Part shown: positions 39,901 to 63,311 of the stretch, piece by piece | Numbering within the stretch: position 1 is the stretch's first letter | Layout: the number at the start of each line of letters is the position of its first letter | NCBI RefSeq assembly: GCF_015840715.1 | Contig: NZ_CP060397.1 | Span: 1,880,686 to 1,944,685 of the forward strand | DNA: 64,000 nt | Reading direction: 5' to 3' | Origin: Synechococcus sp. CBW1004 | GTDB taxonomy: Bacteria; Cyanobacteriota; Cyanobacteriia; PCC-6307; Cyanobiaceae | Translations under genes and position numbers: made by a program | Notes under the pieces: model-generated | What the model saw: only the letters and a program-made list of their open reading frames with translations | The model's database searches: none | What the model was told of the DNA's origin: nothing

Positions 39901-40164
39901 TCATTGGATATACCCCTCAACAAGCTCACCAAAGTCTCACTTGCCTGCCATACAACCACAAGCACGGGTTGCTTAGGCGCAATTAGTTCTTGACATTCCC
40001 TTTTCGGGTCCCCGACTAGCGATGACGGGACTGTAAGGAGTGTTATAGATGCCTGCATTACGTGGGCCAATCCAATGCCGTATGCTCTAGTGCACTTTCG
40101 GGAGCTGTTTAAAAGTTGATAGATCTTCGCGTTGATGCGGTTACCTGCAATGGTCGGATGCCTG
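39901..40164. other. Convergent intergenic gap
   Basis: 264 bp between the plus-strand methylase and the minus-strand SNF2 gene. A+T-rich, no gene supported. It marks the 3' edge of the inserted dynamin-SNF2 unit. I see no inverted repeats long enough for an IS end. Confidence 0.35.
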
Positions 40165-42894: not shown

Positions 42895-42902
42895 GGATCC
42901 CC

Positions 42903-45395: not shown

Positions 45396-45814
45396 ACTTG
45401 CCTTGAAATCAGATTTGGTTTAAGGATGTCGGAGCGATTTGCAGCAATGTCTTATCAACCATTTAACAGCGTACCTTCTCATGGATCTCGTATTGCATGC
45501 TACCAACTAGTGCGCTGTTGCCTCGGCCGGTGCGCACCACCAAGAACAGGCGTCCAATCATCAGGCCTTCGTTCCTGGTGAGCCGTATCTGAGCGAGAGC
45601 ATCAGCTAAAGCGGCTTTACAGCCCTGGGATGGCTCGGATTGGCCGAAGTTCAGAGGTCGGAAACGACTGGCACGATTGACCCAGGCGCAGGCTGTGAGC
45701 TGCGCATCGCAACCGGGCTTAACACTCCGACAATGATGCAGAAACTGCATAGCCAAGCATCCATGCCGCCCATCTCCCTGTCCCTAGCCTGAGCACGCAG
45801 TTCGGTAGCGGTCC
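45396..45814. other. Divergent intergenic region between dynamin and DUF1998-helicase genes
   Basis: About 420 bp that should hold two promoters facing outward. A 97-codon minus-strand frame (45463-45756) exists, but it has a Cys/Arg-rich, unconvincing translation. No hairpin or repeat of note. Confidence 0.35.
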
Positions 45815-48800
45815 TTGCTCCCCTCCGTTGTTGCCAGCGAGCTGGAGCAGGTGGCAGCCGACGCCATCCGCACCGCCTTTCACCCCACTACGCCAGGGTT
45901 CGCTGGGCTGATCGATCGCTTCCTGGCCGATCGCGAGCAGCTGCTCAAGGGGCCCTACGTGTCGGTTGCCCTGCCCTTTCACCAGGGAACAGGGCGCGAC
46001 TGGTTCCCTCAGATCCCGCTGCCCTTCCCGCCCTACCGGCACCAGGAGAAGGCCTTTCAGCGGCTCATGCCCGGCAGCCCCGTCAACACCCTGGTGGCCA
46101 CGGGCACCGGCTCCGGAAAAACCGAGGCCTTTCTCCTGCCCCTGCTGGAGCACTGCCGCCAGCAGCAGGCCCCTGGCACCCGCGGCATCAAGGCGATCCT
46201 CATCTACCCGATGAACGCCCTGGCCACCGACCAGGCCCGGCGCATCGCTGATCTGATCCACACCACTCCTGCTCTGGCCGGCCTGCGTGCTGGTCTCTAC
46301 ATCGGCTCCAGCGATGATGAGCAAACGGCGGCGATGACCGCCACCAGCGTGATCACCGATAAGGAGGCTCTGCAGAAGGCTCCGCCTGACATCCTGCTCA
46401 CCAACTACAAGCAGCTCGACTACCTGCTGATCCAGCCCCATGTTCAGAGCTTGTGGGAGCACAACGGGCGTCTTCCGGATGGCAGCAGCACCCTCCGCTA
46501 TCTGGTGGTGGATGAGTTCCACACCTTCGATGGCGCCCAGGGCACCGACCTCGCCTGCCTGATCCGCCGCCTCCGCGATCGCCTGCAATGCCCTGGTGAG
46601 GATCTGGTCTGCGTCGGCACCTCCGCCACCCTCGGCGGCCCCGAATCACGCGAGGCGATGCTCGACTACGCCGGCCAGATCTTCGCCAGCCGGTTTGAGT
46701 CCACCGCCTTGATCGAGGAAGAGCGCCTCAGCCCGGAGGAATTTTTCTCCGGCCACACCGCCTACGGCCAGGAGGGCCTGCGCGTCTTACCCCTGCCTGG
46801 TCTCGAGGCGATCGACCAGCTGGATCCTGATCCTGCCTCCACTGCAGAGGCCTACCTCACCGTCCAGGCGGCGCTCTGGCTTGGCGATGGCTTGGCCCCG
46901 CCACCGGATGGCAACGTCAACGACGACAAGTGGCGGCTGGCGCTGGGGCTGCAGCTCGGCACCCTGCCCGCTGTGCACAACCTGGTGCGCCAGGCCGAGG
47001 GCACCTGTTCGGTTGAGGAGCTGCTGGAGCGCTTCTCGCGCCAGCTCGGCCTGGGCGATCGGTATCCCCGCCGCTACCGCGTGCTGCTGCTCGAAAGCCT
47101 CCTGGCCTTGATCGCCCATGCCCGCCGCAGCACCACCAGGCTCGATGGCACCCCGGTGGTGGTGCCTTGGCTCAACCTGCGCGTGCAGCTCTGGCTGCGG
47201 GAGCTCAAACGCATGGTGGCCTCGGTGGAGGCCGAACCGCAGCTGCGCCATTCCGATGATCTGGCTGGCAGCGACGCGAGCCCCCACCTGCCGGTGGTGC
47301 ACTGCCGCGATTGCGGCGCCACCGCCTGGACCTCCACCGTGCTCCATTCCGGCAGCAACCGGCTGGATCGGGCCAACAACCTGCAGAGCTTCTACAAGGC
47401 CTTCTTCTCCGGTGCCCCCGAGCTTCGTTTCCTGTTCCCCCAGGGCAAAGCGGCCGAGACGATCAGCCATCAGTTCTGCGCCTCCTGCCTGTCGTTCCAC
47501 CCCGCCAAAGACCTGGCGAACGCCACACCTACCGGTGCTTCTCCGCTCTGCCCCGCCTGTCAGAGCCGCGAGCTGCTGCCGGTCGACATCCCCGATTGCT
47601 CCACCGTCGATGACAACAACCACCCGCGCGTCAGCCGCGACTGCCCCTACTGCAATGCCCAACAGGGCCTGCTGCTGATCGGTTCCTCCGCCGCCAACCT
47701 CTCCAGCACCTGGAGCGCCTCGCTGTTCGCCTCCGCCTTCAACAGCGACAAGAAGTTGCTGGCCTTCTCCGATTCGGTGCAGGACGCCGCTCATCGTGCC
47801 GGCTTCATTGCCGCCCGCGCCTACCGCACCACCTTCCGCACCGCCCTCACCCGCACGCTGCAGCAGGCGGGCGCTCCGCTTCCCCTCAATCAGCTGCAGG
47901 AGCGACTGATCAGCGACTGGCAGCAGCGCTTCCCCAACCCCGTCGACTTCGCCGCCACCTTCATCCCCCACGATCTGGAGTGGCTCAGGGAGTGGGATGC
48001 CCTGCAGCAGCAGCTCACCCCCAGCCTGGAGGCAGAAGGCACCTTGATGCGGTTCCTCGCCGATCGGCTGCGCTGGGAGGTGGCCAGCGAGTTCGGATAT
48101 CGGGCCCGGCTGGGTTCCTCGGTGGAGCAGGCAGGTGCTCTGGCCGCCGCGATCGATCCCGCTGCCGTGAGCCGGTTGCTGCCGGGCCTGCTCCGTGGTT
48201 TGCAGAACGAGATCGAACCGCTGCGCGGTCTGCGTCTCCATCCACTCCAGCAGCTGGTGGTGGGGCTGCTCCAGCATCTGCGCCAGCGCGGTGGGCTGGC
48301 TCTCCCCGAGCTGGTGGGGCGGGAGGGCAAGACCAGCGAGTACCTCGAGAGTGGCGGGGAGAACACCTACCCCTTCAACCAGATCCCCTACCTGCCAGGC
48401 ATCGGCCGCAATTCCACCCGGCCGATCTTTCTCACGAGCTTCCGCGGCAAGGGTCGCTTCGAGCAACTGGTGCGCGACAGCGGTAGGCCCACCTGGTGCC
48501 AGCACTGGCTGCAGCGCACCCTCTTCCCAGGCGCCGCTGCCGACAACGGGGCGTGGCTTGATGCCGAGCAGCAGAAAGAGACCCTCAACGCTGTTGTCGA
48601 GGCGTTGTGCGAGGCCGGCTTGCTGCAGCAGCTCAGCGGCGGGCGCGGGGAGCGCATCTGGGCCATTCCTCCTGCTGCCATCCACGTGAGCCATGAGGCC
48701 CACCCCGTGCGCTGCGAGCACTGCGGCGACATGCACAGCGTGCCCAGCGAGCAGCTCAGCCTCTGGGATGGCCTGCCATGCCAGGTGCGCCACTGCCCCG

Positions 48801-51800
48801 GCAGCTACCGCCACAATCCCGGCGATGGTTCGCCCCTCTGGGGTCTTCCTCTCTACCGACGCCTCTACAGGCGCGGCGACGTGCATCGCATCGTGGCGCG
48901 CGAGCACACCGGTCTCCTGGAGCGCCCGGATCGGGAACGGCTTGAAACCCAGTTCATCCGCGGGCAGTACCGCAGCGATCCCAACCTGCTGTCGGCCACC
49001 TCCACCCTGGAGATGGGCATCAACATCGGCGATCTCTCCTCGGTGTTGCTCGCCTCAGTGCCGCCGGAGCCGGCCAACTACCTGCAGCGCATCGGCCGTG
49101 CCGGTCGCCGCGACGGCAACGCCATCGTCGGCACCTTGGTCAACGGCACCGCCCACGACCTCTATTTCTTCTCCGATCCCCGAGCGATGCTGCAGGGGCA
49201 GGTGAATCCGCCCGGCTGCTATCTCGATGCGGCGTACATCCTGCGTCGACAGCTGCTGGCCTACAGCCTCGATCGCTGGGTCGCGAGCGGTCTCGATGCC
49301 CTGGCGCTGCCGCGCAAGCTGAAACCAGTGCTCGATGGGGTGGAGCAGGCTGCCGCCGGCCAGCCAGCGGACGTCTTCCCCACCACCTGGCTGGGTTGGG
49401 TGCAGGCCCACCAGAATGCGTTGGTCGAGCGATTCTGCGGACTGTTCGGCGAAGAACTGCTCCCGGCGACGCGCTCCGATCTGCGCGGCTTCCTGCTCAG
49501 CCCGGTGGATGCCGGCAGCGCCGAAGCCCTCACGGCTCCTTTCGCAGCGGAGTTGCTCGCCCGCTTGCGCGATCTGGTGGCGGAGCGCAAGCGGCTGCGC
49601 GCCCTCGCCACCCAGCTGCGCACGCGCTTCAACAAGCTCTGCGAGCGGCCTGAGGACGGTCTCACCCCCGATGAACGGGACGCCAAGGAGGCGATCTATC
49701 GCGAGATGCGCGCCTACAACCAGCTGCGCAAGGACCTCGACGGCCGCCCCCTACTGGCGATGCTCACCGATGAGGGCTTCCTGCCCAACTACGCCTTCCC
49801 GGAAGCCGGTGTCACGCTTAAGTCTGTGCTCTGGCGCAAACTGCCAGGCCGTTCCGGGGATGGCCGCCGCAGCGAGGAACTGCCAACCCTCTCCTACGAA
49901 CGCCCCGCAAACGTGGCCATCCGCGAGCTGGTGCCCGACGGTCAGTTCTATGCCCAGGGGCGCCGCGTCAAGGTCGACCAGGTGGATCCGAACCTCAACA
50001 AACCGGAGCGCTGGCGCTTCTGCCCCGCCTGCTCCCACGCCAGCTGCGAGACCGACGACGATTTCAGCCGCAAGCAATGCCCCCGTTGCGGCAACAGCGG
50101 CTACAGCGACCAGGGGCAGGTGAAGGAGATGGCCAAGTTACGTCAGGTGCAGGCCACCACGGAAGATGCCCGCAGCCGTTTCGGCGATGACACCGACGAG
50201 CGCAATCCGCTGTTTTTCCACCGCGAGCTGCTGATCCTTCCCGATCACAGCCGCCGCGAAATCTCGCTGGCCATCGACGATGAGGAGTTCCCCTTCGGCG
50301 CCGAATACCTGGCGAGCACCACCTTCCGGGAGATCAACTTCGGTGAGCAGGCGGCCGTCGGTGCCACCCATGCGATCGCCGGCAAGGCGCTCAAGGTGAA
50401 GGGTTTTGAGCTCTGCCGCCACTGCGGCAAGGTGCAGCGGGGGCCCGTCAGCTCACGCAATCACACCTGGGGCTGCCGCTATCGCGACAAACCCGACGAT
50501 GCCCAGCTGCGACAGCTGCTGTTCATGTACCGGGAGTTCAGCTCCGAGGCCCTGCGCTTCCTGCTCCCCGGCGCCAGCTTCTGGGATGAGGCGGGCCAGC
50601 CGTCGTTTGTGGGCGCCCTGCACCTGGGTCTGCGTCAGCGCTTCGGCGGCAAGGTGGATCACCTGCAGTCCGCCCTTGGCGAGGAACCCCAGCCCAGCAG
50701 CCAGCAGCGCAAGACCTTCCTCTACCTCTTTGATTCAGTGCCGGGAGGCACCGGCTACGTCCGTCAGCTGATCGAGGACGGCGGCCAGGATCTGCGGGCT
50801 GTGTTCGAGCAGTCCCTTAAGGCCCTGCAAGCCTGCTCCTGCAGCGACGGCTGCTACCGCTGCATTTTCATGTATCGGCAGCGCTTCGATCGCCAGCGCA
50901 CAAGCAAGCGCCGTGCCATCGAGCAACTGCAGTCGATCCTGCGCCGCTGGCAGGATCTTCAGCCCAGTGAGCGCAGCCTCTCGGAGGTGGTGATCAACAC
51001 CCGCGCCGAAAGCGAACTGGAACTGCGCTTCATCGAGAAACTGCGCGAGGGCAAAGGAGCGCCAGCGGGCGTCAGCGTGACCCTGCGCGATGACTTCATC
51101 AAGGGCAACAAGGGCTACCTGCTCACCTTCAGCCATGGCATGGGCCCCAACGGCAGCCCAGCCGTGGTGAGCTGGAAGGTGGAATTGCAGGTGCCGCTCG
51201 GAGAGGCCGAGGGGGTGCGCAGCTTCTCCCGCGCCGACTTCCTGCTCACCCCAACCGCCGGCGGTAAACCCATCGCCATCTACACCGATGGCTGGGAATT
51301 TCACCGCAGCCGGCTGGCCGCCGACGCGGAGCAACGCATGGCCCTGCAGCGCAGCGGCCGCTACCTGTTCTGGAGCCTCAGCTGGGATGACGTGGTGGAG
51401 GCGCCGCCGACGGCTCAGACGCCGCTGGAACCCAACAGCCTGGCCGTGGGGATGGTGCCTGCCTTCGCCACCAAGTCGGAAACCTTCCTGGCTTGCTGGT
51501 GGCCGCAGCAGCTGCTCGACAGCCTGGCAACCCCGCCGCTGCTGATGCCACGCCAGGCCCAGCTGGCCAGCAGCCTGGAGCTGCTGATGGCCTATCTGGC
51601 CAATCCCTCTGAACCCCTTTGGCAAGGGATGGCCCAGCAGTTCTGCCTGGCCCAGGCTTCCCCTCTGGCGATCGAGTCGCCTGAGCTCATGGCGGCTGCC
51701 GATACCCTCCAGCTCGGGGCCCATGTGCAGGAGTGGCAGGGCACAGGCTCATCGCGGCGGGTGGGTCAGCAGCTCACGCCCGCCCCCAGCCTCCAGATCC

Positions 51801-52399
51801 ACAACCTGGTCGACATGGGCCTCCATGAGCGGCGCCATCCCGCCGCCAGCTTCCGGGCCGTTCATTTCGATCCCGGGGCAGGCGGCAGTGAGAAACAACA
51901 GCAGGCGGCCTGGCGGGAGTGGCTGCGTCAGGGCAACCTCTTCCAGTTCCTGCCCCATCTGCTGGTCTCCACCCCCGGCTGGGGCGGCAGCGAGGAGCCA
52001 GCTGTGGTGGACCCGCCACAGGTGTGGGTGGCACCTGATGCTTCATCGCCAGGCGAGGACATCTCAGGCATGGCAAGCCCTGCTGCCGAGGAACGTCATC
52101 GGGCCTGGCAGGAGCTGGGCCGCTTCGCACCTCCCGAACTGCAGCCGCTGCTGGAGGCCCTGGAAGCAGCCTGGGCCGATACCGATCGGCCCCTGCCTGA
52201 GCAGGCCTTTGAGCTGGAGGGCTCCCGCGGCGACGTGCTCGCCCAGGCGGAATTGGCCTGGGTCGATCAACGTCTGGCGGTCGTGTGCGATCCCGTTGAT
52301 GCGGAAGCCTTCACAGCTGCGGGCTGGCGCTGCTGGTCGGTGCAGGATCCTCCTGCCGCCACAGCCGCTGCCCTGAGGGAGGCCCTTCCACTCTCCTGA
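45815..52399 (+). CDS. Giant DEAD/DEAH helicase with DUF1998 and Vsr-like C-terminal region
   Basis: 2194 aa. Start TTG 45815 or GTG 45851. Helicase motifs: Walker A VATGTGSGKTEAF (about 94-106), DEFH (about 231-234), TSATLGG, and the second lobe with SATSTLEMGIN (about 1059) and QRIGRAGRRDG (about 1091). Several CxxC clusters insert in the motor and after it (CRDCG, CASC, CPAC, CPYC, CEHCG, CPRCG, CRHCG). The DUF1998/MZB zinc signature CSCSDGCYRC lies at about 1672. A segment ADFLLTP...IAIYTDGWEFH (about 1805-1830) looks like a Vsr/DUF559-type nuclease core. The plan matches DruE of Druantia or a fused DrmA-DrmB of DISARM. It probably unwinds or translocates on invading DNA. The next gene starts 80 bp later. 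Confidence 0.8.
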   Translation: MLPSVVASELEQVAADAIRTAFHPTTPGFAGLIDRFLADREQLLKGPYVSVALPFHQGTGRDWFPQIPLPFPPYRHQEKAFQRLMPGSPVNTLVATGTGSGKTEAFLLPLLEHCRQQQAPGTRGIKAILIYPMNALATDQARRIADLIHTTPALAGLRAGLYIGSSDDEQTAAMTATSVITDKEALQKAPPDILLTNYKQLDYLLIQPHVQSLWEHNGRLPDGSSTLRYLVVDEFHTFDGAQGTDLACLIRRLRDRLQCPGEDLVCVGTSATLGGPESREAMLDYAGQIFASRFESTALIEEERLSPEEFFSGHTAYGQEGLRVLPLPGLEAIDQLDPDPASTAEAYLTVQAALWLGDGLAPPPDGNVNDDKWRLALGLQLGTLPAVHNLVRQAEGTCSVEELLERFSRQLGLGDRYPRRYRVLLLESLLALIAHARRSTTRLDGTPVVVPWLNLRVQLWLRELKRMVASVEAEPQLRHSDDLAGSDASPHLPVVHCRDCGATAWTSTVLHSGSNRLDRANNLQSFYKAFFSGAPELRFLFPQGKAAETISHQFCASCLSFHPAKDLANATPTGASPLCPACQSRELLPVDIPDCSTVDDNNHPRVSRDCPYCNAQQGLLLIGSSAANLSSTWSASLFASAFNSDKKLLAFSDSVQDAAHRAGFIAARAYRTTFRTALTRTLQQAGAPLPLNQLQERLISDWQQRFPNPVDFAATFIPHDLEWLREWDALQQQLTPSLEAEGTLMRFLADRLRWEVASEFGYRARLGSSVEQAGALAAAIDPAAVSRLLPGLLRGLQNEIEPLRGLRLHPLQQLVVGLLQHLRQRGGLALPELVGREGKTSEYLESGGENTYPFNQIPYLPGIGRNSTRPIFLTSFRGKGRFEQLVRDSGRPTWCQHWLQRTLFPGAAADNGAWLDAEQQKETLNAVVEALCEAGLLQQLSGGRGERIWAIPPAAIHVSHEAHPVRCEHCGDMHSVPSEQLSLWDGLPCQVRHCPGSYRHNPGDGSPLWGLPLYRRLYRRGDVHRIVAREHTGLLERPDRERLETQFIRGQYRSDPNLLSATSTLEMGINIGDLSSVLLASVPPEPANYLQRIGRAGRRDGNAIVGTLVNGTAHDLYFFSDPRAMLQGQVNPPGCYLDAAYILRRQLLAYSLDRWVASGLDALALPRKLKPVLDGVEQAAAGQPADVFPTTWLGWVQAHQNALVERFCGLFGEELLPATRSDLRGFLLSPVDAGSAEALTAPFAAELLARLRDLVAERKRLRALATQLRTRFNKLCERPEDGLTPDERDAKEAIYREMRAYNQLRKDLDGRPLLAMLTDEGFLPNYAFPEAGVTLKSVLWRKLPGRSGDGRRSEELPTLSYERPANVAIRELVPDGQFYAQGRRVKVDQVDPNLNKPERWRFCPACSHASCETDDDFSRKQCPRCGNSGYSDQGQVKEMAKLRQVQATTEDARSRFGDDTDERNPLFFHRELLILPDHSRREISLAIDDEEFPFGAEYLASTTFREINFGEQAAVGATHAIAGKALKVKGFELCRHCGKVQRGPVSSRNHTWGCRYRDKPDDAQLRQLLFMYREFSSEALRFLLPGASFWDEAGQPSFVGALHLGLRQRFGGKVDHLQSALGEEPQPSSQQRKTFLYLFDSVPGGTGYVRQLIEDGGQDLRAVFEQSLKALQACSCSDGCYRCIFMYRQRFDRQRTSKRRAIEQLQSILRRWQDLQPSERSLSEVVINTRAESELELRFIEKLREGKGAPAGVSVTLRDDFIKGNKGYLLTFSHGMGPNGSPAVVSWKVELQVPLGEAEGVRSFSRADFLLTPTAGGKPIAIYTDGWEFHRSRLAADAEQRMALQRSGRYLFWSLSWDDVVEAPPTAQTPLEPNSLAVGMVPAFATKSETFLACWWPQQLLDSLATPPLLMPRQAQLASSLELLMAYLANPSEPLWQGMAQQFCLAQASPLAIESPELMAAADTLQLGAHVQEWQGTGSSRRVGQQLTPAPSLQIHNLVDMGLHERRHPAASFRAVHFDPGAGGSEKQQQAAWREWLRQGNLFQFLPHLLVSTPGWGGSEEPAVVDPPQVWVAPDASSPGEDISGMASPAAEERHRAWQELGRFAPPELQPLLEALEAAWADTDRPLPEQAFELEGSRGDVLAQAELAWVDQRLAVVCDPVDAEAFTAAGWRCWSVQDPPAATAAALREALPLS

Positions 52400-52479
52400 T
52401 CCACGTCCAACCCACTCAGCCACCGCCTGACCCGCCAGCCATCACCGCCAGTCTTCACCGCCTCCTCCCCGGACCTGAC

Positions 52480-54690
52480 ATGAGCGAGCCCTGCCTCACC
52501 GTTGCCCTCTCCAACGACTTCTTCAAGGCGTTCGGGCGGTTGCCGGAGAAGGCGCGCGGCAAGGTGGCCACCTTCATTTCCAAGTTCCGTGCCAATCCCC
52601 GCAGTCCGGGGCTCAACTACGAGCGCATCGAAGGCGGTAAGGATCCCTTCATCCGCTCGATCCGGGTGGATCAGGACATCCGCTGCATCGTGCGCGCGCC
52701 TGACGAAGGCGACACCTACGTGTTGCTCTGGATCGACAAGCACGACGACGCCTACCAATGGGCGCGCCGCCGCACCTGCCATGTGAACCGTGTCTCCGGT
52801 GCCCTGCAGGTGGTGGATGTGGAGGCCGCCGAAATGGCTGTTGGCGATGCCATTGCCGCCGCCGTCAGCGAGGCACTCGCCAATCAGACCCCGCCGTCTC
52901 AGGCCTCTGGCATAGCGACTCCCGTCACGACCCAGATCCAAGACAAGGCTCCATCGCTGTTCGCCCACTGCGACGACGACCAGTTGATGCTGCTGGGGGT
53001 TCCAGAAGCCCTACTGCCTGCCGTACGGGCTGTCAGCAGCGAAGAGGCTCTGACCCGCCTGATCGAGTGGGTGCCCCAGGACTGCGTCGATGGACTGATC
53101 CTGCTCGCAGACGGCAAGCCAATCGAGACCGTGATTGAGGAGCTGGAACGCCAGCGGCCGACAGCCATCGATCCCAGCGATGTGGCCGCGGCCCTCGACA
53201 CCCCGGAGAGCAAGGCTGAATTTCTGGTCATCACCGATGACGACGTGCTGGAAGCGATGCTCTCGGCGCCGCTGGAGCGCTGGCGCGTGTTCCTCCATCC
53301 CAGTCAGCGCCGACTCGTCGAAAGGAACTGGAGTGGTGCAGTACGGGTGCTCGGTGGTGCTGGCACCGGCAAGACGGTGGTGGCCATGCACCGGGCCCGC
53401 TGGCTTGCTCAGCAACAGATTCGCTCGAGCACTCCCGGCCGGGTGTTGTTCACCACCTTCACCCGCAACCTGGCCACCGACATCCGCGCCAACCTCACCA
53501 AGATCTGCAGCCCCGAGGAACTTCAGCGCATCGAGGTGATTCACCTCGATGGCTGGGTGATGAACTTCCTCAAGAACCAGGGCCTGCAGGTGCGGGTGTT
53601 CAACGAGGAGGCTCGTGACAGCGCATGGAGCCTGGCTTTGGATGTGGCCGAAACGTCGCTGGGATTCGACAAGCGCTTCTACCAGGAAGAGTGGAAAGAC
53701 GTGGTGCTCGCTCAGGGCTGCCGCAGCCGCGACGACTACCTGATGGCACGGCGGGTGGGCCGCGGCACCCGCCTGAATCGCCAGCAGCGCGCCCAGATCT
53801 GGCCCGTCTTCGATGCGCTGCGCGCCGAATTCCGCCAGCGAGGGCTGTGGGAGCCGGAGGAGGCCAAACAGATCGCCGCCGACCTGCTGAACCGCGGCGA
53901 TCAGCCGCCGCTGTTTGCCGCCGTGGTGGTGGACGAAGCCCAGGATCTTGATCTGGCCTCCTTCTCGCTGCTCAGGGCCCTGGTGGGTGAGCCCCGCGCC
54001 AACGATCTGTTCATCGTCGGTGATCCCCACCAACGGATCTATGGCAAGCCGGTGGTGCTCAGCCGCTGCGGCATCGACATCCGCGGTCGCGCCAGGAAGC
54101 TGCGGATCAACTACCGCACCACGGAGGAAACCCGTGCCTGGGCCACAGCCGTCCTGCACGGCCTTGACTTCGATGACCTTGATGGCGGCAGCGATCCCAG
54201 CAGCGACTACCGCTCCCTGCTCTATGGCGATGCCCCGCTAGTGCGGGGATTCGAGGATCCCGCGGAAGAGCAGGGCTTCCTGGTGAGCACCCTGCGCCAG
54301 CTGCGGGAGGAGCAGCAATCTCTCGCCTCCACCTGCGTCTCAGCCCGAACCAACAAAGCGGTTGAGAAGCTCAATGGCCTGCTGCAGGCTGAGGGATTCG
54401 TCACCCGGGTGATCAACGCCGATGAGTCGGATGACCCCAGCGACCCGGCCCTGCGACTGGCCACGATGCACCGCGTCAAGGGCCTGGAGTTCGACCAGGT
54501 GTTCCTGCCAGGGCTGACGGCCGACCAGATCCCCCTCAGGCGCATCCTCGATGGCTGCCCAGACCAGCTCTCCAAGGAACTGTTCGAGCAGCAGGAACGC
54601 TCACTCCTGCACGTCGCCGCCACCCGTGCCAAGAAGCGGGTGGTGGTGAGCTTCAGCGGTCAGCCATCACCGTTCATCGGCGCCAGCTGA
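52480..54690 (+). CDS. UvrD/Rep-type helicase with N-terminal RelE-like domain
   Basis: 736 aa from ATG 52480. Residues 1-95 look like a RelE/ParE-superfamily fold (LSNDFFKAFGRLPEKARGKV, GLNYERIEGGKDPFIRSIRV, RCIVRAPDEGDTYVLLWIDK HDDAY). A linker of about 190 residues leads to an SF1 helicase: Walker A GGAGTGKTVVAMHRAR (about 292), DEAQDLDLASF (about 484), VGDPHQRIYG (about 514), MHRVKGLEFDQVF (about 663) and VAATRAKKRV (about 712). The motor lacks the large 2B insertions of classical UvrD. It may process DNA ends, with the RelE-like part acting as a nuclease, an RNA-binding module or a regulator. It belongs to the same plus-strand run as the DUF1998 helicase and the next small gene. Confidence 0.8.
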   Translation: MSEPCLTVALSNDFFKAFGRLPEKARGKVATFISKFRANPRSPGLNYERIEGGKDPFIRSIRVDQDIRCIVRAPDEGDTYVLLWIDKHDDAYQWARRRTCHVNRVSGALQVVDVEAAEMAVGDAIAAAVSEALANQTPPSQASGIATPVTTQIQDKAPSLFAHCDDDQLMLLGVPEALLPAVRAVSSEEALTRLIEWVPQDCVDGLILLADGKPIETVIEELERQRPTAIDPSDVAAALDTPESKAEFLVITDDDVLEAMLSAPLERWRVFLHPSQRRLVERNWSGAVRVLGGAGTGKTVVAMHRARWLAQQQIRSSTPGRVLFTTFTRNLATDIRANLTKICSPEELQRIEVIHLDGWVMNFLKNQGLQVRVFNEEARDSAWSLALDVAETSLGFDKRFYQEEWKDVVLAQGCRSRDDYLMARRVGRGTRLNRQQRAQIWPVFDALRAEFRQRGLWEPEEAKQIAADLLNRGDQPPLFAAVVVDEAQDLDLASFSLLRALVGEPRANDLFIVGDPHQRIYGKPVVLSRCGIDIRGRARKLRINYRTTEETRAWATAVLHGLDFDDLDGGSDPSSDYRSLLYGDAPLVRGFEDPAEEQGFLVSTLRQLREEQQSLASTCVSARTNKAVEKLNGLLQAEGFVTRVINADESDDPSDPALRLATMHRVKGLEFDQVFLPGLTADQIPLRRILDGCPDQLSKELFEQQERSLLHVAATRAKKRVVVSFSGQPSPFIGAS

Positions 54691-55410: not shown

Positions 55411-55500
55411 ACCCCCTTCAAAAAACCTCACCCCACCCCTTTTTCCGGGGGCCATGGTGAGCAGTCGCACCGCAGTCTCTGACTGCAAGAGCCGTCCATC

Positions 55501-57772: not shown

Positions 57773-58345
57773 ATGTCAACCATTCCTTCCCTACCCATCA
57801 CGCTCTGCAGCCTCCGCATCGCTGCACGTTGGTGCAACGCTGCAGCCGGCAAGCTGCTCACGGCCGCGGCCATCCTTGGCTGCCTCAACGCTCTGGCCAT
57901 CGCCATCGAGCACACCCACCTCAGCGGGCAAGCCTGCGGCCGTCTGCTCAAGCCCCGTCTCCATCACCTCTGGACGTTGATCGATTGGCGCGATGTCGCC
58001 GCCATCGTCATCACCGGCCTCCTCGTGATGGCCATCGGCAGCTGGCAGCTGCTGCGCTGGAGCCATCGCACCCTCGTGGCCCTGAGCGAACAGCTCGGGC
58101 AACACGCCAGCGCGTTGGTGCTGCGCCAGAGCCAACCTGACATCGGCGCAGCCGATCCACAACTGAGCCCACCCGCAATAACAGAAGCCTCCGCAACTCA
58201 GTCCACCATCGAGCCCCAAACGCCCCGGCCGTACCGACGCCGCACCGCGGTAGTCGCGGCCAAGCCGGCCAGGCAACCACAGGCCTCCCGCACCAAGGCA
58301 AGGGGCGTGCAGGCCCCGCGCGGTTTTGCTGTCTCCACTCGCTGA
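57773..58345 (+). CDS. Two-TM membrane protein, unknown function
   Basis: 190 aa from ATG 57773 (MSTIPSLPITLCSLRIAAR). Two hydrophobic helices, LLTAAAILGCLNALAIAIEH (about 28-47) and DVAAIVITGLLVMAIGSWQL (about 74-93), are followed by a polar, Pro/Gln/Arg-rich cytoplasmic tail ending in a basic patch (RRRTAVVAAKPARQPQASRT). No family recognised. It is immediately upstream of the ubiquitin-like cassette but separated from it by a hairpin, so it is probably a separate transcript. Confidence 0.55.
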   Translation: MSTIPSLPITLCSLRIAARWCNAAAGKLLTAAAILGCLNALAIAIEHTHLSGQACGRLLKPRLHHLWTLIDWRDVAAIVITGLLVMAIGSWQLLRWSHRTLVALSEQLGQHASALVLRQSQPDIGAADPQLSPPAITEASATQSTIEPQTPRPYRRRTAVVAAKPARQPQASRTKARGVQAPRGFAVSTR

Positions 58346-58382
58346 TTCATCGGCCCCTTTCCCTCTTTGCCCCTCAACCTCT

Positions 58383-58400
58383 GGCCCCTTTCCGGGGGCC
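58383..58400 (+). repeat. Recurring GC hairpin element, copy 4
   Basis: GGCCCC (58383-58388), TTTCCG loop, GGGGCC (58395-58400). It lies 38 bp after the two-TM gene and 67 bp before the Ubl start. In this position it can end the upstream transcript and begin the leader of the Ubl-JAB-E2-E1 operon. Confidence 0.55.
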
Positions 58401-58466
58401 TGGTTCTGGCGCCTGTGTTGTGCACCCCTACCGGCACAGGTGTTCCACCTACCCATCGCCAGAACC

Positions 58467-58748
58467 ATGGGCTTCTTCCGATTCACCAACCCCTCCCCCG
58501 CCAACACGCAAGGCGAGGACCTTCGCCCGATCGTGCTCCAGCTCAACGAGGAGGAGATCCGCATCCCTGCCTCCGAGGCGGCCGGCAAGTCGATCGAGCA
58601 GCTGTTCGACGAACACGCCGCAGATCTCGGTGACACCAACCGGATCAGCAGGTTCGTTGCTGCAGGCCAGATCGTCTCCGGCCATGACGCCGCCAAACCC
58701 GGCACCATCTACCGAGGCGCCATCAACTCCGAAACGAAAGGCGCCTGA
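58467..58748 (+). CDS. Ubiquitin-like (beta-grasp) protein, PRTRC-C/Prok-Ub-like
   Basis: 93 aa from ATG 58467 (MGFFRFTNPSPANTQGEDL). The folded part reads PIVLQLNEEEIRIPAS, then a helix KSIEQLFDEHAADLG, NRISRFVAAGQIVSG, and a final strand PGTIYRGAINSE ending TKGA. This strand-helix-strand order with the closing PGT-Y segment resembles small prokaryotic ubiquitin-like/ThiS-MoaD proteins, notably PRTRC protein C. There is no C-terminal Gly-Gly; the end is GA, so trimming by the neighbouring JAMM protein is conceivable. The assignment relies mainly on the neighbours: a JAMM protease, an E2-like and an E1-like gene follow directly. Confidence 0.65.
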   Translation: MGFFRFTNPSPANTQGEDLRPIVLQLNEEEIRIPASEAAGKSIEQLFDEHAADLGDTNRISRFVAAGQIVSGHDAAKPGTIYRGAINSETKGA

Positions 58749-58749
58749 G

Positions 58750-59811
58750 ATGGACGACTTCATCCGTACCCCACGGAACGGATGCTTTCGGGTGCGCAGC
58801 AATACCTGGGGCCAGTTCCTGGCCCCTTGTCCCGATCCGCAAGCCACCGCCGTTCTCGAGCCCGGAGCGCTCGATTCCTTCCAGCTGCACGACTCCATCC
58901 ACCGCATCCCGGCGGATCTCTGGAGCCGCTGGGTGCAGCTCTGCTTTCACTTCGCCCACCTCCGCCAGGGCGATCTGGAAGTCAGCTGCCGGCTGCTCCG
59001 CCACGAGGAGGACCGCAGCCAGTGGCGCCTCCTCATCCCCCATCAGGAGGTGAGCGGTGCCTCCGTGCGCATCGACTCCTTTGATGCGGCGATCGACATC
59101 GCGACCGGCGAGCTGGTGGAGCTTTATCCACCCGAGGGCTGGGTGCCGGCCGGCAGTAGCCACAGCCACAACACGATGACGCTCGATCGCTTCTCGTCCA
59201 TCGACGACGCATCGGAACTCGGCTGTCCGGGCCTGCACATCGTCCTTTCCCACATCAACACAACCCGGCGCACCTACCTCGCCACCGCCTCGATCACCGC
59301 CAACCACCGCCGCTTCTACCTCCCAGACGCCGCAGCCGTCATCGACCTCACGCCCATCGCCGCCACCTTCCATCCGGCTGTGCTCGAGGTGATCCAGCCG
59401 CAGCGGCCCTCCCGTGGCTGGCTCCTCCCGGTCCCATCACCAACGCGTCAAAGCCGCAGTGCCTGCCGGACTGAAAGGCCAGCTCATCTCTCACCCTCCT
59501 TCACCCACGAGGCAGCACGGGAGCCAGACAGCTGGCCGACCAGCGAGGCCCAGGAGGACCTCGACTGGGCCCTGCATGCGGTGTGGGAGGCCATACAAGA
59601 AGCCTTCCTCTGTGCTGAGGCCTATCAACTCGATCGAGACGACGTGCTGGCGGAAGTGATCGACGCCATTCGCCATAGCTACGCCCAGCACTCCACCCTC
59701 CTCGACAACCCACTCACCTGGCTTGATGACCATGACCTTGATCACCCCAGTGACGGCACCGACCGTCCTGTTCCATCCACTCCCCAGGGATTACCGATTA
59801 GCGAGTGGTAG
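58750..59811 (+). CDS. JAMM/JAB (MPN) metallo-isopeptidase-like protein, PRTRC-A-like
   Basis: 353 aa from ATG 58750, one base after the Ubl stop. The zinc-site motif of JAMM proteins is seen: GSSHSHNTM with H138 and H140, then FSSIDD giving Ser149-x2-Asp152. A preceding strand ELVELYPPEGWVPAG and a following hydrophobic strand PGLHIVLSHIN complete the fold. It would cut isopeptide or C-terminal bonds of the Ubl. The C-terminal 110 residues (EAQEDLDWALHAVWEAIQEA and on) are helical and unassigned. The last 86 bp overlap the E2-like gene in another frame. Family confidence is good; substrate inferred. Confidence 0.75.
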   Translation: MDDFIRTPRNGCFRVRSNTWGQFLAPCPDPQATAVLEPGALDSFQLHDSIHRIPADLWSRWVQLCFHFAHLRQGDLEVSCRLLRHEEDRSQWRLLIPHQEVSGASVRIDSFDAAIDIATGELVELYPPEGWVPAGSSHSHNTMTLDRFSSIDDASELGCPGLHIVLSHINTTRRTYLATASITANHRRFYLPDAAAVIDLTPIAATFHPAVLEVIQPQRPSRGWLLPVPSPTRQSRSACRTERPAHLSPSFTHEAAREPDSWPTSEAQEDLDWALHAVWEAIQEAFLCAEAYQLDRDDVLAEVIDAIRHSYAQHSTLLDNPLTWLDDHDLDHPSDGTDRPVPSTPQGLPISEW

Positions 59812-60793
59812 ATCCCTGAACCTCTCAGGCCGCAGCGTCTTCGTGCTCAGCGCCTGGCTGCCGGATGGCCACGGCCATCTCACCTATGCAGGCAGCTGCG
59901 ACAGCGATGACTGCCTTGATGCGTTCTTTGAGGAGACGTGCAAGGGCTGCGACTTCTACTTCCAGGACTACAGCGACAGTGACATCGACTACGAGGACGG
60001 CAACGGCAACCCCGCCACCTCCATCACCTACAAGTCCCGCTGCCGCTGCTACGAGGACGGCATCAACTGGGTGTCCTTCCCCTGCCCCGCAGGCCACGAC
60101 GACCCCCAGGACATGTCGGCACCGGATGTCATCGACGGCCCGCTGCCGCCGATGGTCTATGCCATCCAGCTCGATCCAATCCGCGGCCGCAGGCTCAGCG
60201 ACCAGGCCGCGATGCAGGCTGTCGACCCCAGCAGCCGCTGGCTGTCAGCGCTCTACGAGAGCCTCAACGTCTTCTCCCACGGGGCGATCTGCTGGGGGCA
60301 GAACGACGAGCTGCCCGAAAGCCTGCCGGAGATCGTCGACACCTACGCCGCCACGCCGGCCAATGGCGATCTGCTCAAGCCGAGCGACTACCTCGCCAAC
60401 TGCCGGAACGTCAGGAGCAGCCGCTGCACCAACCCCATCGGCGGCTGCGTGATCGACGCCGGCTTTGACGCCGCTCTGCTGGTGTCCAGTCAGCACCAGC
60501 CGGCGGCCTATCTGCTGCTGCGCGGCAGCGGCTTCCCCGCTGAGGACGGCGTCATCGCCGTCGGCCTGCACCGCCACGTCCTCCTCGAGCAGGACGGCCA
60601 GCAGCTCGCTGGCTTCCTCACGGCCGCCAGCGATGGCCGCTGCTGGTTTGTCCTCCCCCATCCCGATCACACCGGCGACACGCGTCTGCAGTTCCAGGCG
60701 CTGCTGCTTGCCCAGATCCCTGATCCCCATTCCCTCCCATGTTCGTTGACTCCACCATCGTCATCGGTGCTGGCGGCACTGGCGGCCAGCTGA
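59726..60793 (+). CDS. E2-like PRTRC-B-type protein
   Basis: 355 aa from ATG 59726 (MTMTLITPVTAPTVLFHPL); ATG 59732 is also possible. It resembles PRTRC system protein B, grouped with prokaryotic E2-like families. The recognisable part is SLNVFSHGAICWGQNDELPE (about 179-198), matching the N-V-x-x-x-G-x-I/V-C-x-G pattern, with Cys189 as a candidate reactive residue. An N-terminal acidic, Cys-containing segment (DSDDCLDAFFEETCKGCDFY) and a CRCYED segment could bind metal. It starts inside the JAB gene and ends 55 bp inside the E1 gene, so the three products are translationally linked. The E2 assignment is moderate: the motif is short and was matched from memory. Confidence 0.6.
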   Translation: MTMTLITPVTAPTVLFHPLPRDYRLASGRSLNLSGRSVFVLSAWLPDGHGHLTYAGSCDSDDCLDAFFEETCKGCDFYFQDYSDSDIDYEDGNGNPATSITYKSRCRCYEDGINWVSFPCPAGHDDPQDMSAPDVIDGPLPPMVYAIQLDPIRGRRLSDQAAMQAVDPSSRWLSALYESLNVFSHGAICWGQNDELPESLPEIVDTYAATPANGDLLKPSDYLANCRNVRSSRCTNPIGGCVIDAGFDAALLVSSQHQPAAYLLLRGSGFPAEDGVIAVGLHRHVLLEQDGQQLAGFLTAASDGRCWFVLPHPDHTGDTRLQFQALLLAQIPDPHSLPCSLTPPSSSVLAALAAS

Positions 60794-61446
60794 TCCCTTC
60801 CCTGGCACGGCTGCTGGCCTACCACCCCAATGCCGCGGCCCATCTCCTGATCGCCGATGGCGATGTCTTTGAGGATCACAACCAGGCCCGTCAGCTGTGC
60901 GGGCCCGATCAACTCGGACGCAACAAGGCCGATGTCCTGGCTCACCACTGCCAGGAGATCGGCCTTTGCGCTGTCCGCAGCCACCCCGACTTCCTCGACA
61001 AAGCCGTCCTCAGGCGCCTGCTTCCCGGAAGCACCTGTCCGCTGATCGTCAGCGCCGTCGACAACGACGCCACCCGCAAGTCCGTCATCGACGTGCTGCA
61101 AGAACACCAGGGCGACTGGCTGCATGTCACCACCGGCAACGCCGACGACAGTGACGGCCGCGGCCGCATCGCCACCAGCACCCACTGGCATGGCGTCATT
61201 GGCGGCCAGCCGATTGGCCTGTCGCCCGCCCTGCTCTTCGGCAACATCGCTCGCCCCATCGACGCCATCCCGGCTCATGGCACCTGCGCGGCTCACGCCC
61301 CCTCTGCCCCGCAGTTGATCAGCGCCAATGCGCTCTCCGCCGCCATGGCCCTGCTCGTCATCCAGAACCTCCTTGATGGCGTCATGCCCACTTCCCACAA
61401 CTCGGCCTTTGCCAACGGCCGGACTTTTCAGCTCACCCTCTCCTGA
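60739..61446 (+). CDS. ThiF/E1-like adenylating enzyme, PRTRC-ThiF-like
   Basis: 235 aa from ATG 60739 (MFVDSTIVIGAGGTGGQLI). The E1/ThiF fold is clear: nucleotide loop GAGGTGG (10-16), Asp40 and Asp42 in IADGDVFED, Asn48 and Arg51-Gln52 in NQARQLC, Lys63 in GRNKADVL, and VSAVDND with Asp108 near the Mg site. Cys271-type catalytic loops of large E1s are absent; HGTCAAHAP offers a Cys. It is shorter than MoeB and lacks the CxxC zinc pairs. It should adenylate the C-terminus of the adjacent Ubl for transfer. It starts inside the E2-like gene and ends 7 bp before the next ATG. Confidence 0.85.
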   Translation: MFVDSTIVIGAGGTGGQLIPSLARLLAYHPNAAAHLLIADGDVFEDHNQARQLCGPDQLGRNKADVLAHHCQEIGLCAVRSHPDFLDKAVLRRLLPGSTCPLIVSAVDNDATRKSVIDVLQEHQGDWLHVTTGNADDSDGRGRIATSTHWHGVIGGQPIGLSPALLFGNIARPIDAIPAHGTCAAHAPSAPQLISANALSAAMALLVIQNLLDGVMPTSHNSAFANGRTFQLTLS

Positions 61447-61453
61447 TCACCCC

Positions 61454-62065
61454 ATGTCCACCACCATCGACGTTCAAGGCAACACCGTCAACGCAGGCGA
61501 CATCCTGCTGCGCCTCGATGCCCTCGCTGACGGCTACCACGAGGTGCTTCAGACAGCCAGGGCACAGCTGGAAGCCTTCGAGATCACCGAGGGCGACTGG
61601 GCCCGGCTGGCCGAGAAGCTCACCCGCAACATCGACTATCCAGCGATTGCCCGGGCCTTCCAGCGGCAGCTCGATGCCGCCTGCATCGCCAGCCTCTATC
61701 CCATGCCGGAGTCCCATCTCCTGCCAACCCTCAGCGACGACGATCGGCAGTTCGTCCAGATGCTGAACCGCATTGCTGATCGCGTGCTCCGCAAAGTCGA
61801 GGACGACCGCATCAAGGATCTCGTGCGCCAGGAGATCAGCGCCCAGATCACTCCACTTCATGGCGAGCTCAGCGCCATGGCCGAGGCCGCGGCCGAGCGG
61901 ACGTTCGCCAACCTCGAGCATGAGGTGATCTCTCGCTGCCGCGAACAGGAGCATCACTTCCAGCGTTTCCTGCAGGCTGCCCTTGGCCACGACCTCCATG
62001 CCGTCATTCGCACGGCAATACAGGAAGCACAGGCGTCAGGTACGGCCAACGACGCCGGCGACTGA
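61454..62065 (+). CDS. Hypothetical helical protein following the E1-like gene
   Basis: 203 aa from ATG 61454 (MSTTIDVQGNTVNAGDILL), 7 bp after the E1 stop, so probably in the same operon. Predominantly helical and acidic: RLDALADGYHEVLQTARAQL, IADRVLRKVEDDRIKDLVRQ, AMAEAAAERTFANLEHEVIS. It looks like a coiled-coil scaffold. No family recognised; it could be the substrate or an accessory partner of the conjugation enzymes. Confidence 0.6.
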   Translation: MSTTIDVQGNTVNAGDILLRLDALADGYHEVLQTARAQLEAFEITEGDWARLAEKLTRNIDYPAIARAFQRQLDAACIASLYPMPESHLLPTLSDDDRQFVQMLNRIADRVLRKVEDDRIKDLVRQEISAQITPLHGELSAMAEAAAERTFANLEHEVISRCREQEHHFQRFLQAALGHDLHAVIRTAIQEAQASGTANDAGD

Positions 62066-62558: not shown

Positions 62559-63311
62559 ATGAGCCATCCCGTCACCGGTACCGGCCTGCTGTCGCTGATC
62601 CGCGACTTCGAGGGGCGCCCCAAAGCCGACATTGCCCTCGCCGCCGGCTACCGGCGCGACAACGGCAACCCCGCCTTCACGGCCTTCTACGAGGCGGTGC
62701 TCAAGGCCAAGGGCCAATGGCCCCCGCCGCCAGCACCGCCCTTGCCGCCCGGCGGAATCGAACGCCGTTGCGGCGATGGCCCGGCGATCTATGTCGCCTG
62801 CCTCGCCTCCTACAACGCGGGCCGTCTGTTCGGCAGCTGGCTGGATCTCTCTGACGGCCCCGACGCCGACGACATCCGCACCGCCATCGCGGCAGTGATC
62901 CAGGAGTCACCGGCACCGGATGCCGAGGAGTACGCCATCCACGACAACCAGCTCCTCCCCACCTTCCTCGCCAGAACGGAATGGCCGGACATCGATGAGC
63001 TGGTGGCCTACTGCCAGATCGTCAGTGAACTCGATGCCGACGACGCCACCGTCTACCGCATCCTCTGCAGCGATGCCGGCCAGGTGCTCGAGCCCGACGC
63101 CTGGCGTGACGGCTTCCACGGCCTCTACGAGCGCCCCGAGGACTTCGCCCATGACTGGATGGAGGAACGCGGGCTACTCGATCAGGTCCCCGACGAACTC
63201 CGCTGTCACATCGACTGGGCGGGCGTCTGGCGTGACCTCGATGCCGAGGGCTTCTGCGCCACCTATTCCCCGCAGCAGGGCCACCGCTACCTGATCACCT
63301 CTGACATCTGA
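62559..63311 (+). CDS. ArdA-type antirestriction protein with N-terminal extension
   Basis: 250 aa from ATG 62559. From about residue 75 the ArdA pattern is evident: PAIYVACLASYNAGRLFGSW, LDLSDGPDADDIRTAIAAVI, SPAPDAEEYAIHDNQLLP, the acidic central part FHGLYERPEDFAHDWMEERG, and the end IDWAGVWRDLDAEGFCATYS. ArdA proteins mimic B-form DNA with acidic residues and block type I restriction enzymes; they are typical of conjugative and integrative elements. The N-terminal 65 residues (LLSLIRDFEGRPKADIALAA) look like a small helical domain joined by a Pro-rich linker. Its presence supports a self-transferring past. Confidence 0.8.
   Translation: MSHPVTGTGLLSLIRDFEGRPKADIALAAGYRRDNGNPAFTAFYEAVLKAKGQWPPPPAPPLPPGGIERRCGDGPAIYVACLASYNAGRLFGSWLDLSDGPDADDIRTAIAAVIQESPAPDAEEYAIHDNQLLPTFLARTEWPDIDELVAYCQIVSELDADDATVYRILCSDAGQVLEPDAWRDGFHGLYERPEDFAHDWMEERGLLDQVPDELRCHIDWAGVWRDLDAEGFCATYSPQQGHRYLITSDI

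Follow-up and report, generated by a model that had tools for sequence, protein, structure and literature searches.

Four adjoining open reading frames (ORFs) on the + strand of the Synechococcus sp. CBW1004 chromosome raise the question of whether they make up a ubiquitin-like conjugation pathway, to which known system such a pathway is related and what kind of element usually carries it. They lie at 58467-61446 of the 64,000-nucleotide stretch analysed here (NZ_CP060397.1, positions 1,880,686 to 1,944,685; the window) and encode a beta-grasp ubiquitin-like protein (Ubl), a JAMM peptidase, an E2-like protein and a ThiF/E1 protein. An earlier examination of the letters without database searches (the sequence-only reading) had proposed this four-gene set at these coordinates, which we could confirm, and had matched it to the PRTRC cassettes. 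In our assessment the genes probably encode a complete pathway for Ubl conjugation. It would belong to a sister lineage of PRTRC/6d whose main carriers are large tailed phages, the copy described here being located in a chromosomal island. Gene set, gene order, invariant residues, the fold of the Ubl and carriage by phages can all be read from the sequences.

The AlphaFold2 model of the Ubl (pLDDT 77.6) is a beta-grasp fold, in agreement with the sequence-only reading. Structural comparison aligned 996 PDB chains with the model, 627 of them at Z ≥5, and the neighbours listed are mostly ubiquitin, ISG15, MoaD, SAMP1 and other beta-grasp proteins. The best neighbour is a Raf RBD (Z 8.4), and MoaD (1fm0_D) aligns at Z 7.4 over 67 residues with Ubl residues 21-91 falling on its residues 1-81, MoaD's C-terminal end. 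Foldseek returned no match to the model at E 0.001 and Pfam none to the sequence at E ≤1. The lack of a C-terminal Gly-Gly had been remarked upon as an oddity; Gly-Gly is indeed absent, but the rule of the family is a single Gly after Lys, and Lys-Gly followed by no (6), one (3) or two (5) residues forms the C-terminus of all 14 Ubls. This set comprises the window and 13 viral sequences, since the fourteenth viral contig, L044, starts after the Ubl gene. Of eight plasmid-borne proteins of the PRTRC-C type, seven have KG, either close to the C-terminus or followed by a longer tail, while the eighth has NG. We infer that Gly92 is the conjugated end of the Ubl and that the JAMM peptidase removes the residues beyond it.

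Profiles of the five cassette families were compared with plasmid-derived sets for PRTRC A, B, C, E, F and ThiF. The JAMM peptidase matched PRTRC_A at 97.8 % probability (E 8e-13) with the JAMM motif falling on its counterpart. H138 and H140 are present in 13 of 13 rows and S149 and D152 in the 12 of 12 that reach that far (L105 being represented by its first exon only, L045 and L046 left out because of an intron), in keeping with the JAMM protease and its H138xH140 and SxxD residues as first read. R6 and W20 are also invariant (13/13); for 6d operons the accessible part of PMC1779556 describes a JAB-N domain in which an Arg and a Trp are strictly conserved. No match of the JAMM peptidase to a solved structure was obtained at E ≤0.1. 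Group I introns (Rfam RF00028) begin at the end of the HSH codons in the JAMM genes of L045 (10408-10648, 63.3 bits), L046 (10408-10648, 59.2 bits) and L105 (8402-8638, 54.8 bits), and such introns favour strongly constrained sites.

The E2-like protein matched PRTRC_B at 92.8 % (E 3.9e-7, 92 columns) with the predicted catalytic Cys aligned, against a reference of 17 rows of which two (L010 and L015) are all gaps in the stretch inspected and probably derive from wrong reading frames. C72, C75, C106, C120, N181, C189 and W190 are found in all 15 sequences, which upholds the NVFSHGAIC-G motif of the sequence-only reading, and N213, D215 and L216 are further family-invariant residues. The first four cysteines presumably form a zinc-binding module. 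The E1 has a Pfam ThiF match at 9.3e-12 and a PRTRC_ThiF profile match at 99.9 % (E 6.9e-37), in which the predicted thioester Cys aligns with its counterpart; three TcdA chains were the matches among solved structures (~9e-4). The Gly residues of GxGGxG (G10, G12, G13 and G15), N48, R51, K63 and D108, the landmarks picked out beforehand as GAGGTGG and single residues, are invariant in 15 of 15 sequences together with C183, and D40 and Q52 are also invariant in the family. All 27 other profile pairs scored ≤1.4 %.

Scans of IMG/VR with the JAMM protein and with E1 and JAMM alignments returned 18 virus records. As L051-L054 are identical over 16,696 bases and L098 and L099 have identical match values, these represent 14 distinct contigs. 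The order Ubl-JAMM-E2-E1-fifth gene is kept in 13 of the 14, L044 being the contig that begins after the Ubl, and L097 and L101 carry insertions of ~1.2 kb between cassette genes. The nearest relative is L043, with identities in tblastn segments of 72 % (E1), 52 % (JAMM), 41 % (E2), 47 % (Ubl) and 30 % (fifth gene). Two viral candidates were set aside, L007, an 18-residue E2 match with no cassette genes by tblastn, and L058, a distant E1 (27 %). Cellular genomes gave a different picture. Of 386 genomes sampled from the window's phylum one had the JAMM gene, and of 400 sampled from its family one had the E2 gene; each time it was the genome of the window itself. A single-protein E1 scan of bacterial genome contigs revealed no close relatives, and an E1-alignment scan of 84,980 species genomes, which relies on short patterns and is not complete, gave 17 distant partial ThiF matches, the best 44 % over residues 1-74. 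Plasmids yielded no E2 match and 53 distant E1 records, of which 12 neighbourhoods were read. As separate observations, the E2 gene of a same-phylum genome (L011) is almost identical to that on a Nostoc plasmid (L112), and on a Planococcus plasmid (L041, 5207-5932) a Ubl-like stretch ending KPKGAP seems, by reading, to be fused before a JAMM domain.

In an unrooted E1 tree, which also took in 12 plasmid and two other phage sequences, the window and 14 viral-contig sequences form one side of a long branch (2.38) with support of 100/100, a grouping recovered in all 200 bootstrap trees. Inside the viral set the window groups with L043 as its sister. Together with the distribution this E1 phylogeny makes phages the usual carriers of the cassette lineage.

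The viral nature of the contigs is supported to differing degrees. T4-type major capsid protein Gp23 was identified in five of 11 and two of eight records, corresponding to four distinct lineages of 161-284 kb, and terminase PF03237 above cut-off in seven of 11 and two of eight. One of these terminase matches, on the L045 contig (G731), sits in a 259-aa ORF that resembles a second, lesser match on G736 and so may not be a terminase. The PF03237 search gave nothing above cut-off on the contigs of L044, L046, L091, L097, L101, L043, L089 and L090. The GC-rich relatives L043 and L089 nevertheless encode a terminase (PHROG 38, ~1e-72), and the L090 contig carries tail, endolysin and integrase genes. 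L101 has a terminase match below cut-off only, and L044, L046, L091 and L097 have no hallmark with the two or three models tried; these five are viral by the IMG/VR call. The photosystem reaction-centre family Photo_RC was present in four of the 11 records searched for it, all of one lineage, and points to cyanophages. RNA elements were also noted on these contigs, namely a cyanobacterial-type tmRNA near the cassette of L097 (4790-5048, Rfam RF01851, 104.8 bits) with tRNA genes close by, an abiF RNA match on L091 (3842-3878, 50.2 bits) and a glutamine riboswitch match on L046 (2868-2920, 46.9 bits).

The proposed membership of PRTRC held in part. Like PRTRC/6d as described in the accessible part of PMC1779556, the window lineage has separate genes for a Ubl, a JAB peptidase, an E1-like and an E2-like protein (Prok-E2_D/PRTRC_B) and a Ubl that ends near a conserved Gly, and in both the E1-like ThiF is a separate ORF not fused to the JAB. 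A, B and ThiF are recovered at profile level only; the lineage falls below the NCBIfam cut-offs, however, its Ubl does not align with PRTRC_C and no PRTRC ParB was found. Among NCBIfam models the window E1 fits PRTRC_ThiF best, at 1.9e-12, but its 47.1 bits fall short of the 144.75 required; none of the PRTRC models matches the window Ubl, JAMM or E2. PRTRC ParB had no match at E ≤0.01 in the window's own genome, in agreement with the earlier remark that it is not seen before the window ends, or in 16 viral records, which are often fragments. The idea that a PRTRC set continues beyond the window fails on these results and on the placement of the E1 in the viral-contig clade. Gene order differs as well, being Ubl-JAMM-E2-E1 here and C-F-B-A-ThiF in PRTRC pMOL28. 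Unlike PRTRC/6d the window lineage is carried by phages, has the four-Cys module in its E2 and no invariant His after the catalytic Cys, and has no match to ParB, E or F. We therefore file the cassette as a sister variant of PRTRC/6d, not as a PRTRC member, because it shares descent with PRTRC/6d in A, B and ThiF but has no match to ParB or E/F, scores under the NCBIfam cut-offs and lacks an invariant downstream His.

Sister cassettes are also found in cultured phages. E1 or JAMM matches were obtained in Bacillus phage KLEB27-3 (217 kb), Vibrio phages D69, D148 and D181 (~187 kb) and Salmonella phage Arash (181 kb), and the loci of KLEB27-3, D69 and Arash were read. Each has adjoining E2, JAMM and E1 genes in that order, unlike the window lineage, and their E2 proteins are closer to PRTRC, matching PRTRC_B with probabilities of 96.8, 96.7 and 96.1 % as against 20-42 % to the window family. 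In KLEB27-3 the JAMM and E1 match the window family at 93.2 and 99.6 %; the match of this phage to the PRTRC A and ThiF references is circular because it (L113) is among their rows. A KG pattern revealed no Ubl beside the cassette genes of KLEB27-3. The annotated start of the D69 E1 is late, as the frame runs on upstream through GCGGTGS, and in the same phage a gene annotated as hypothetical (L114, 1265-2056) has three tandem units each ending GTKG with a weak PRTRC_C match (21 %). Arash has an unannotated 66-codon ORF (L115, ~107-307) ending GTKG-stop, a probable Ubl that overlaps gp251c in another frame. GenBank numbers the Arash E1, JAMM and E2 as gp246c, gp247c and gp248c, and the accessible part of PMC10585845 lists Gp246, Gp247, Gp248, Gp249 and Gp251 in the particle proteome. 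Numbering in the paper and the record may differ by one after Gp239, although all three enzymes are listed either way.

Features of the cassette and its surroundings are collected in Table 1. The fifth ORF starts 7 nt after the E1 gene. L043 has a counterpart in the same place (tblastn 1e-20), and in other lineages a gene is also present in this position, poorly conserved in sequence. It scored ≤0.1 % against PRTRC E and F, and no other gene lies inside the cassette. The tight gene overlaps that had been thought unusual are present, at 86 nt (JAMM/E2) and 55 nt (E2/E1), as they are in L043 (83 and 55 nt). They are not a peculiarity of the family as a whole. Most low-GC phage cassettes have spacers of ~60-100 nt instead, and overlap is a trait of the GC-rich members, the window and L043.

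Table 1 Features of the conjugation cassette and its neighbour in the window
Feature	Position	Strand	Remarks
Ubl gene	58467..58748	+	93 aa; AlphaFold2 beta-grasp, ubiquitin/MoaD/SUMO-like PDB neighbours
Ubl C-terminal codons Lys91-Gly92-Ala93	58737..58745	+	Invariant Lys-Gly, then one-residue tail
JAMM peptidase gene	58750..59811	+	353 aa; profile match to PRTRC_A
JAMM motif H138-S-H140 to S149xxD152	59161..59205	+	Group I introns directly 3' of HSH in L045, L046, L105
E2-like gene	59726..60793	+	355 aa; profile match to PRTRC_B
Four-Cys module C72xxC75, C106, C120 in E2-like protein	59939..60085	+	Presumed zinc-binding
Predicted catalytic Cys189 of E2-like protein, in NVFSHGAICWG	60290..60292	+	Aligned with Cys of PRTRC_B
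E1/ThiF gene	60739..61446	+	235 aa; Pfam ThiF, profile match to PRTRC_ThiF
Predicted E1 thioester Cys183	61285..61287	+	Aligned with Ser-Cys of PRTRC_ThiF
Fifth cassette gene	61454..62065	+	203 aa; helical or coiled-coil by inspection only
ArdA-type antirestriction gene	62559..63311	+	Pfam ArdA 3.5e-23; island neighbour, not conserved with cassette

Upstream of the cassette, at a distance of 4-24 kb (34906-54690), are a type IIG restriction-methylation gene, DrmD/BrxH-like and DruE-like helicases and a UvrD-type helicase with GajB-like matches. Downstream are ArdA, an AAA_25 protein and a 439-aa ORF which, by reading and with no Pfam match, is taken for an integrase; after it come mazG and further genes of chromosomal appearance, as judged by inspection. 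No attachment site of the island was found. A repeat, CTTTCCGGGGGCC, occurs at 55441, 55510, 56534, 57679, 58388 and 62112 (six matches with ≤1 mismatch, 0.34 expected), its 15-base form having three copies genome-wide, all within the island, and copies are placed both ahead of the Ubl gene and behind the fifth. For the leader of the Ubl gene (58340-58470) a stable RNA fold of -49.7 kcal/mol (z -3.7) is predicted, with none of 200 shuffles as low.

If the assignments are correct, the pathway, its target and its role may be reconstructed as follows. The JAMM peptidase would trim the zero to two residues after Gly92 of the Ubl where these are present, and the E1 would adenylate Gly92 and take the Ubl on Cys183. 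The E2-like protein would then receive the Ubl on Cys189 and pass it to a target, its four-Cys module being a possible target-binding part, and the JAMM peptidase could also remove the Ubl from the target. Tentatively, and at somewhat less than an even chance, we favour a role in which the mobile element modifies host proteins or its own early in infection or establishment, for host take-over or counter-defence.

Several results weigh against a complete pathway of this descent and carriage. The Ubl does not align with the PRTRC_C profile (1.1 %), Pfam Prok-E2_D reaches E 0.29 on the E2-like protein, and no His is among its invariant residues in the 15 sequences, unlike the downstream His of 6d E2s, although a His after the Cys is not universal in the PRTRC_B reference rows inspected either. 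Against solved structures the protein gave one chance-like row (E 0.53). The sequence-only reading had made its case depend on a beta-grasp fold of the 93-aa protein, which was found, and on an E2 or PRTRC-B match of the 355-aa protein, where the profile match is clear and the structure model gave none to an E2. This AlphaFold2 model (eight sequences, pLDDT 60.9) had no row at Z ≥5 in VIA-align and no E2 fold. It was given no weight either way on the question of the fold, and as it failed, the profile match and the Cys are the basis of the E2 assignment. The defence-like genes upstream could point to defence. The virion preparations of Arash contained 116 proteins and the authors allow for enzyme carry-over (accessible part of PMC10585845), so the proteome indicates expression more safely than packaging.

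Among other explanations, the cassette could serve the host as a defence against phages, similar to Bil or CBASS, and tag incoming phage proteins, with phages having acquired their copies secondarily. Bil, Bub and type II CBASS (Cap2/Cap3) are likewise bacterial systems of Ubl or Ubl-like conjugation with E1, E2 and JAB, though the E1 and E2 of CBASS are fused in one protein (Cap2) while those of the window are separate ORFs. The restriction-methylation gene and the DrmD/BrxH-, DruE- and GajB-like helicases of the island (34.9-54.7 kb) would suit such a role, as would weak PADLOC matches of the E1 to E1-E2 (3.6e-7) and BilD (0.0021), and Bil conjugates a Ubl so as to interfere with phage assembly (cited in the accessible part of PMC13373217). 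PADLOC gave no match for the Ubl, JAMM or E2, however, and an antirestriction gene, ArdA, is nearby. The presence of the JAMM gene in a single sampled genome of the phylum against 14 distinct viral contigs, and the position of the window E1 inside the viral set beside L043, further argue against defence, which we regard as unlikely. Maintenance of a plasmid or replicon through modified partition or replication proteins, as the PRTRC name suggests, seems to us similarly improbable: sister plasmid cassettes do lie beside ParB, dnaN, dnaX, primase or Rad52-like genes, but the family is found in tailed phages and PRTRC ParB has no match in the window's own genome or in the 16 viral records.

A function in the phage particle is a little easier to entertain but still doubtful; virion proteins would be modified or protected by the pathway, or its components would be packaged and enter the cell along with the DNA. 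This would agree with the listing of the Arash E1, JAMM and E2 in the particle proteome under either numbering. Phages of the lambda type encode a Ubl (TAPI) with a JAB peptidase (TAPK), a likeness to the window lineage, and these act in tail assembly; unlike the window lineage, they are described without E1 and E2 (accessible part of PMC1779556). The Arash list also includes RNA polymerase and ribonucleotide reductase (accessible part of PMC10585845), and structural genes were not seen adjoining the cassette in the viral loci read, where no systematic neighbour scan was made. Least probable by far is sulphur-carrier chemistry of the ThiS/MoaD kind, the E1 and Ubl forming a thiocarboxylate and no conjugate. 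A weak Pfam ThiS match (E 0.0062) was obtained for one phage Ubl, and MoaD is among the structural neighbours, but all 15 sequences include a Prok-E2_D-type protein whose Cys is invariant, with a JAMM gene next to it, and the cassette showed no rhodanese or sulphur-relay gene.

An E1-E2-Ubl-JAMM set in phages was not found described in the open-access literature, subscription papers being mostly outside that coverage so that absence in print is unproven, and the accessible part of a jumbo-phage review (PMC7824862) contains no mention of JAB, ThiF, Ubl, E1-like or PRTRC. For the conjugation pathway of a phage-borne sister lineage favoured here, we see an even chance that large tailed phages including T4-like cyanophages run their own complete E1-E2-Ubl-JAMM pathway, tagging host or virion proteins during infection, and that a bacterial chromosome captured one copy. 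The function of PRTRC/6d has been unsettled since its description in 2006, and the compact version in phages brings it within reach of experiment, since phages can be cultivated and their genes deleted, and sister cassettes are present in at least three phages already in culture. The Lys-Gly end rule also defines precisely which bond mass spectrometry should look for. The nearest known relatives being in large bacterial viruses suggests that some viruses of bacteria use ubiquitin-style tagging, and if conjugation were confirmed such viruses would be users, and not only targets, of ubiquitin-like tagging.

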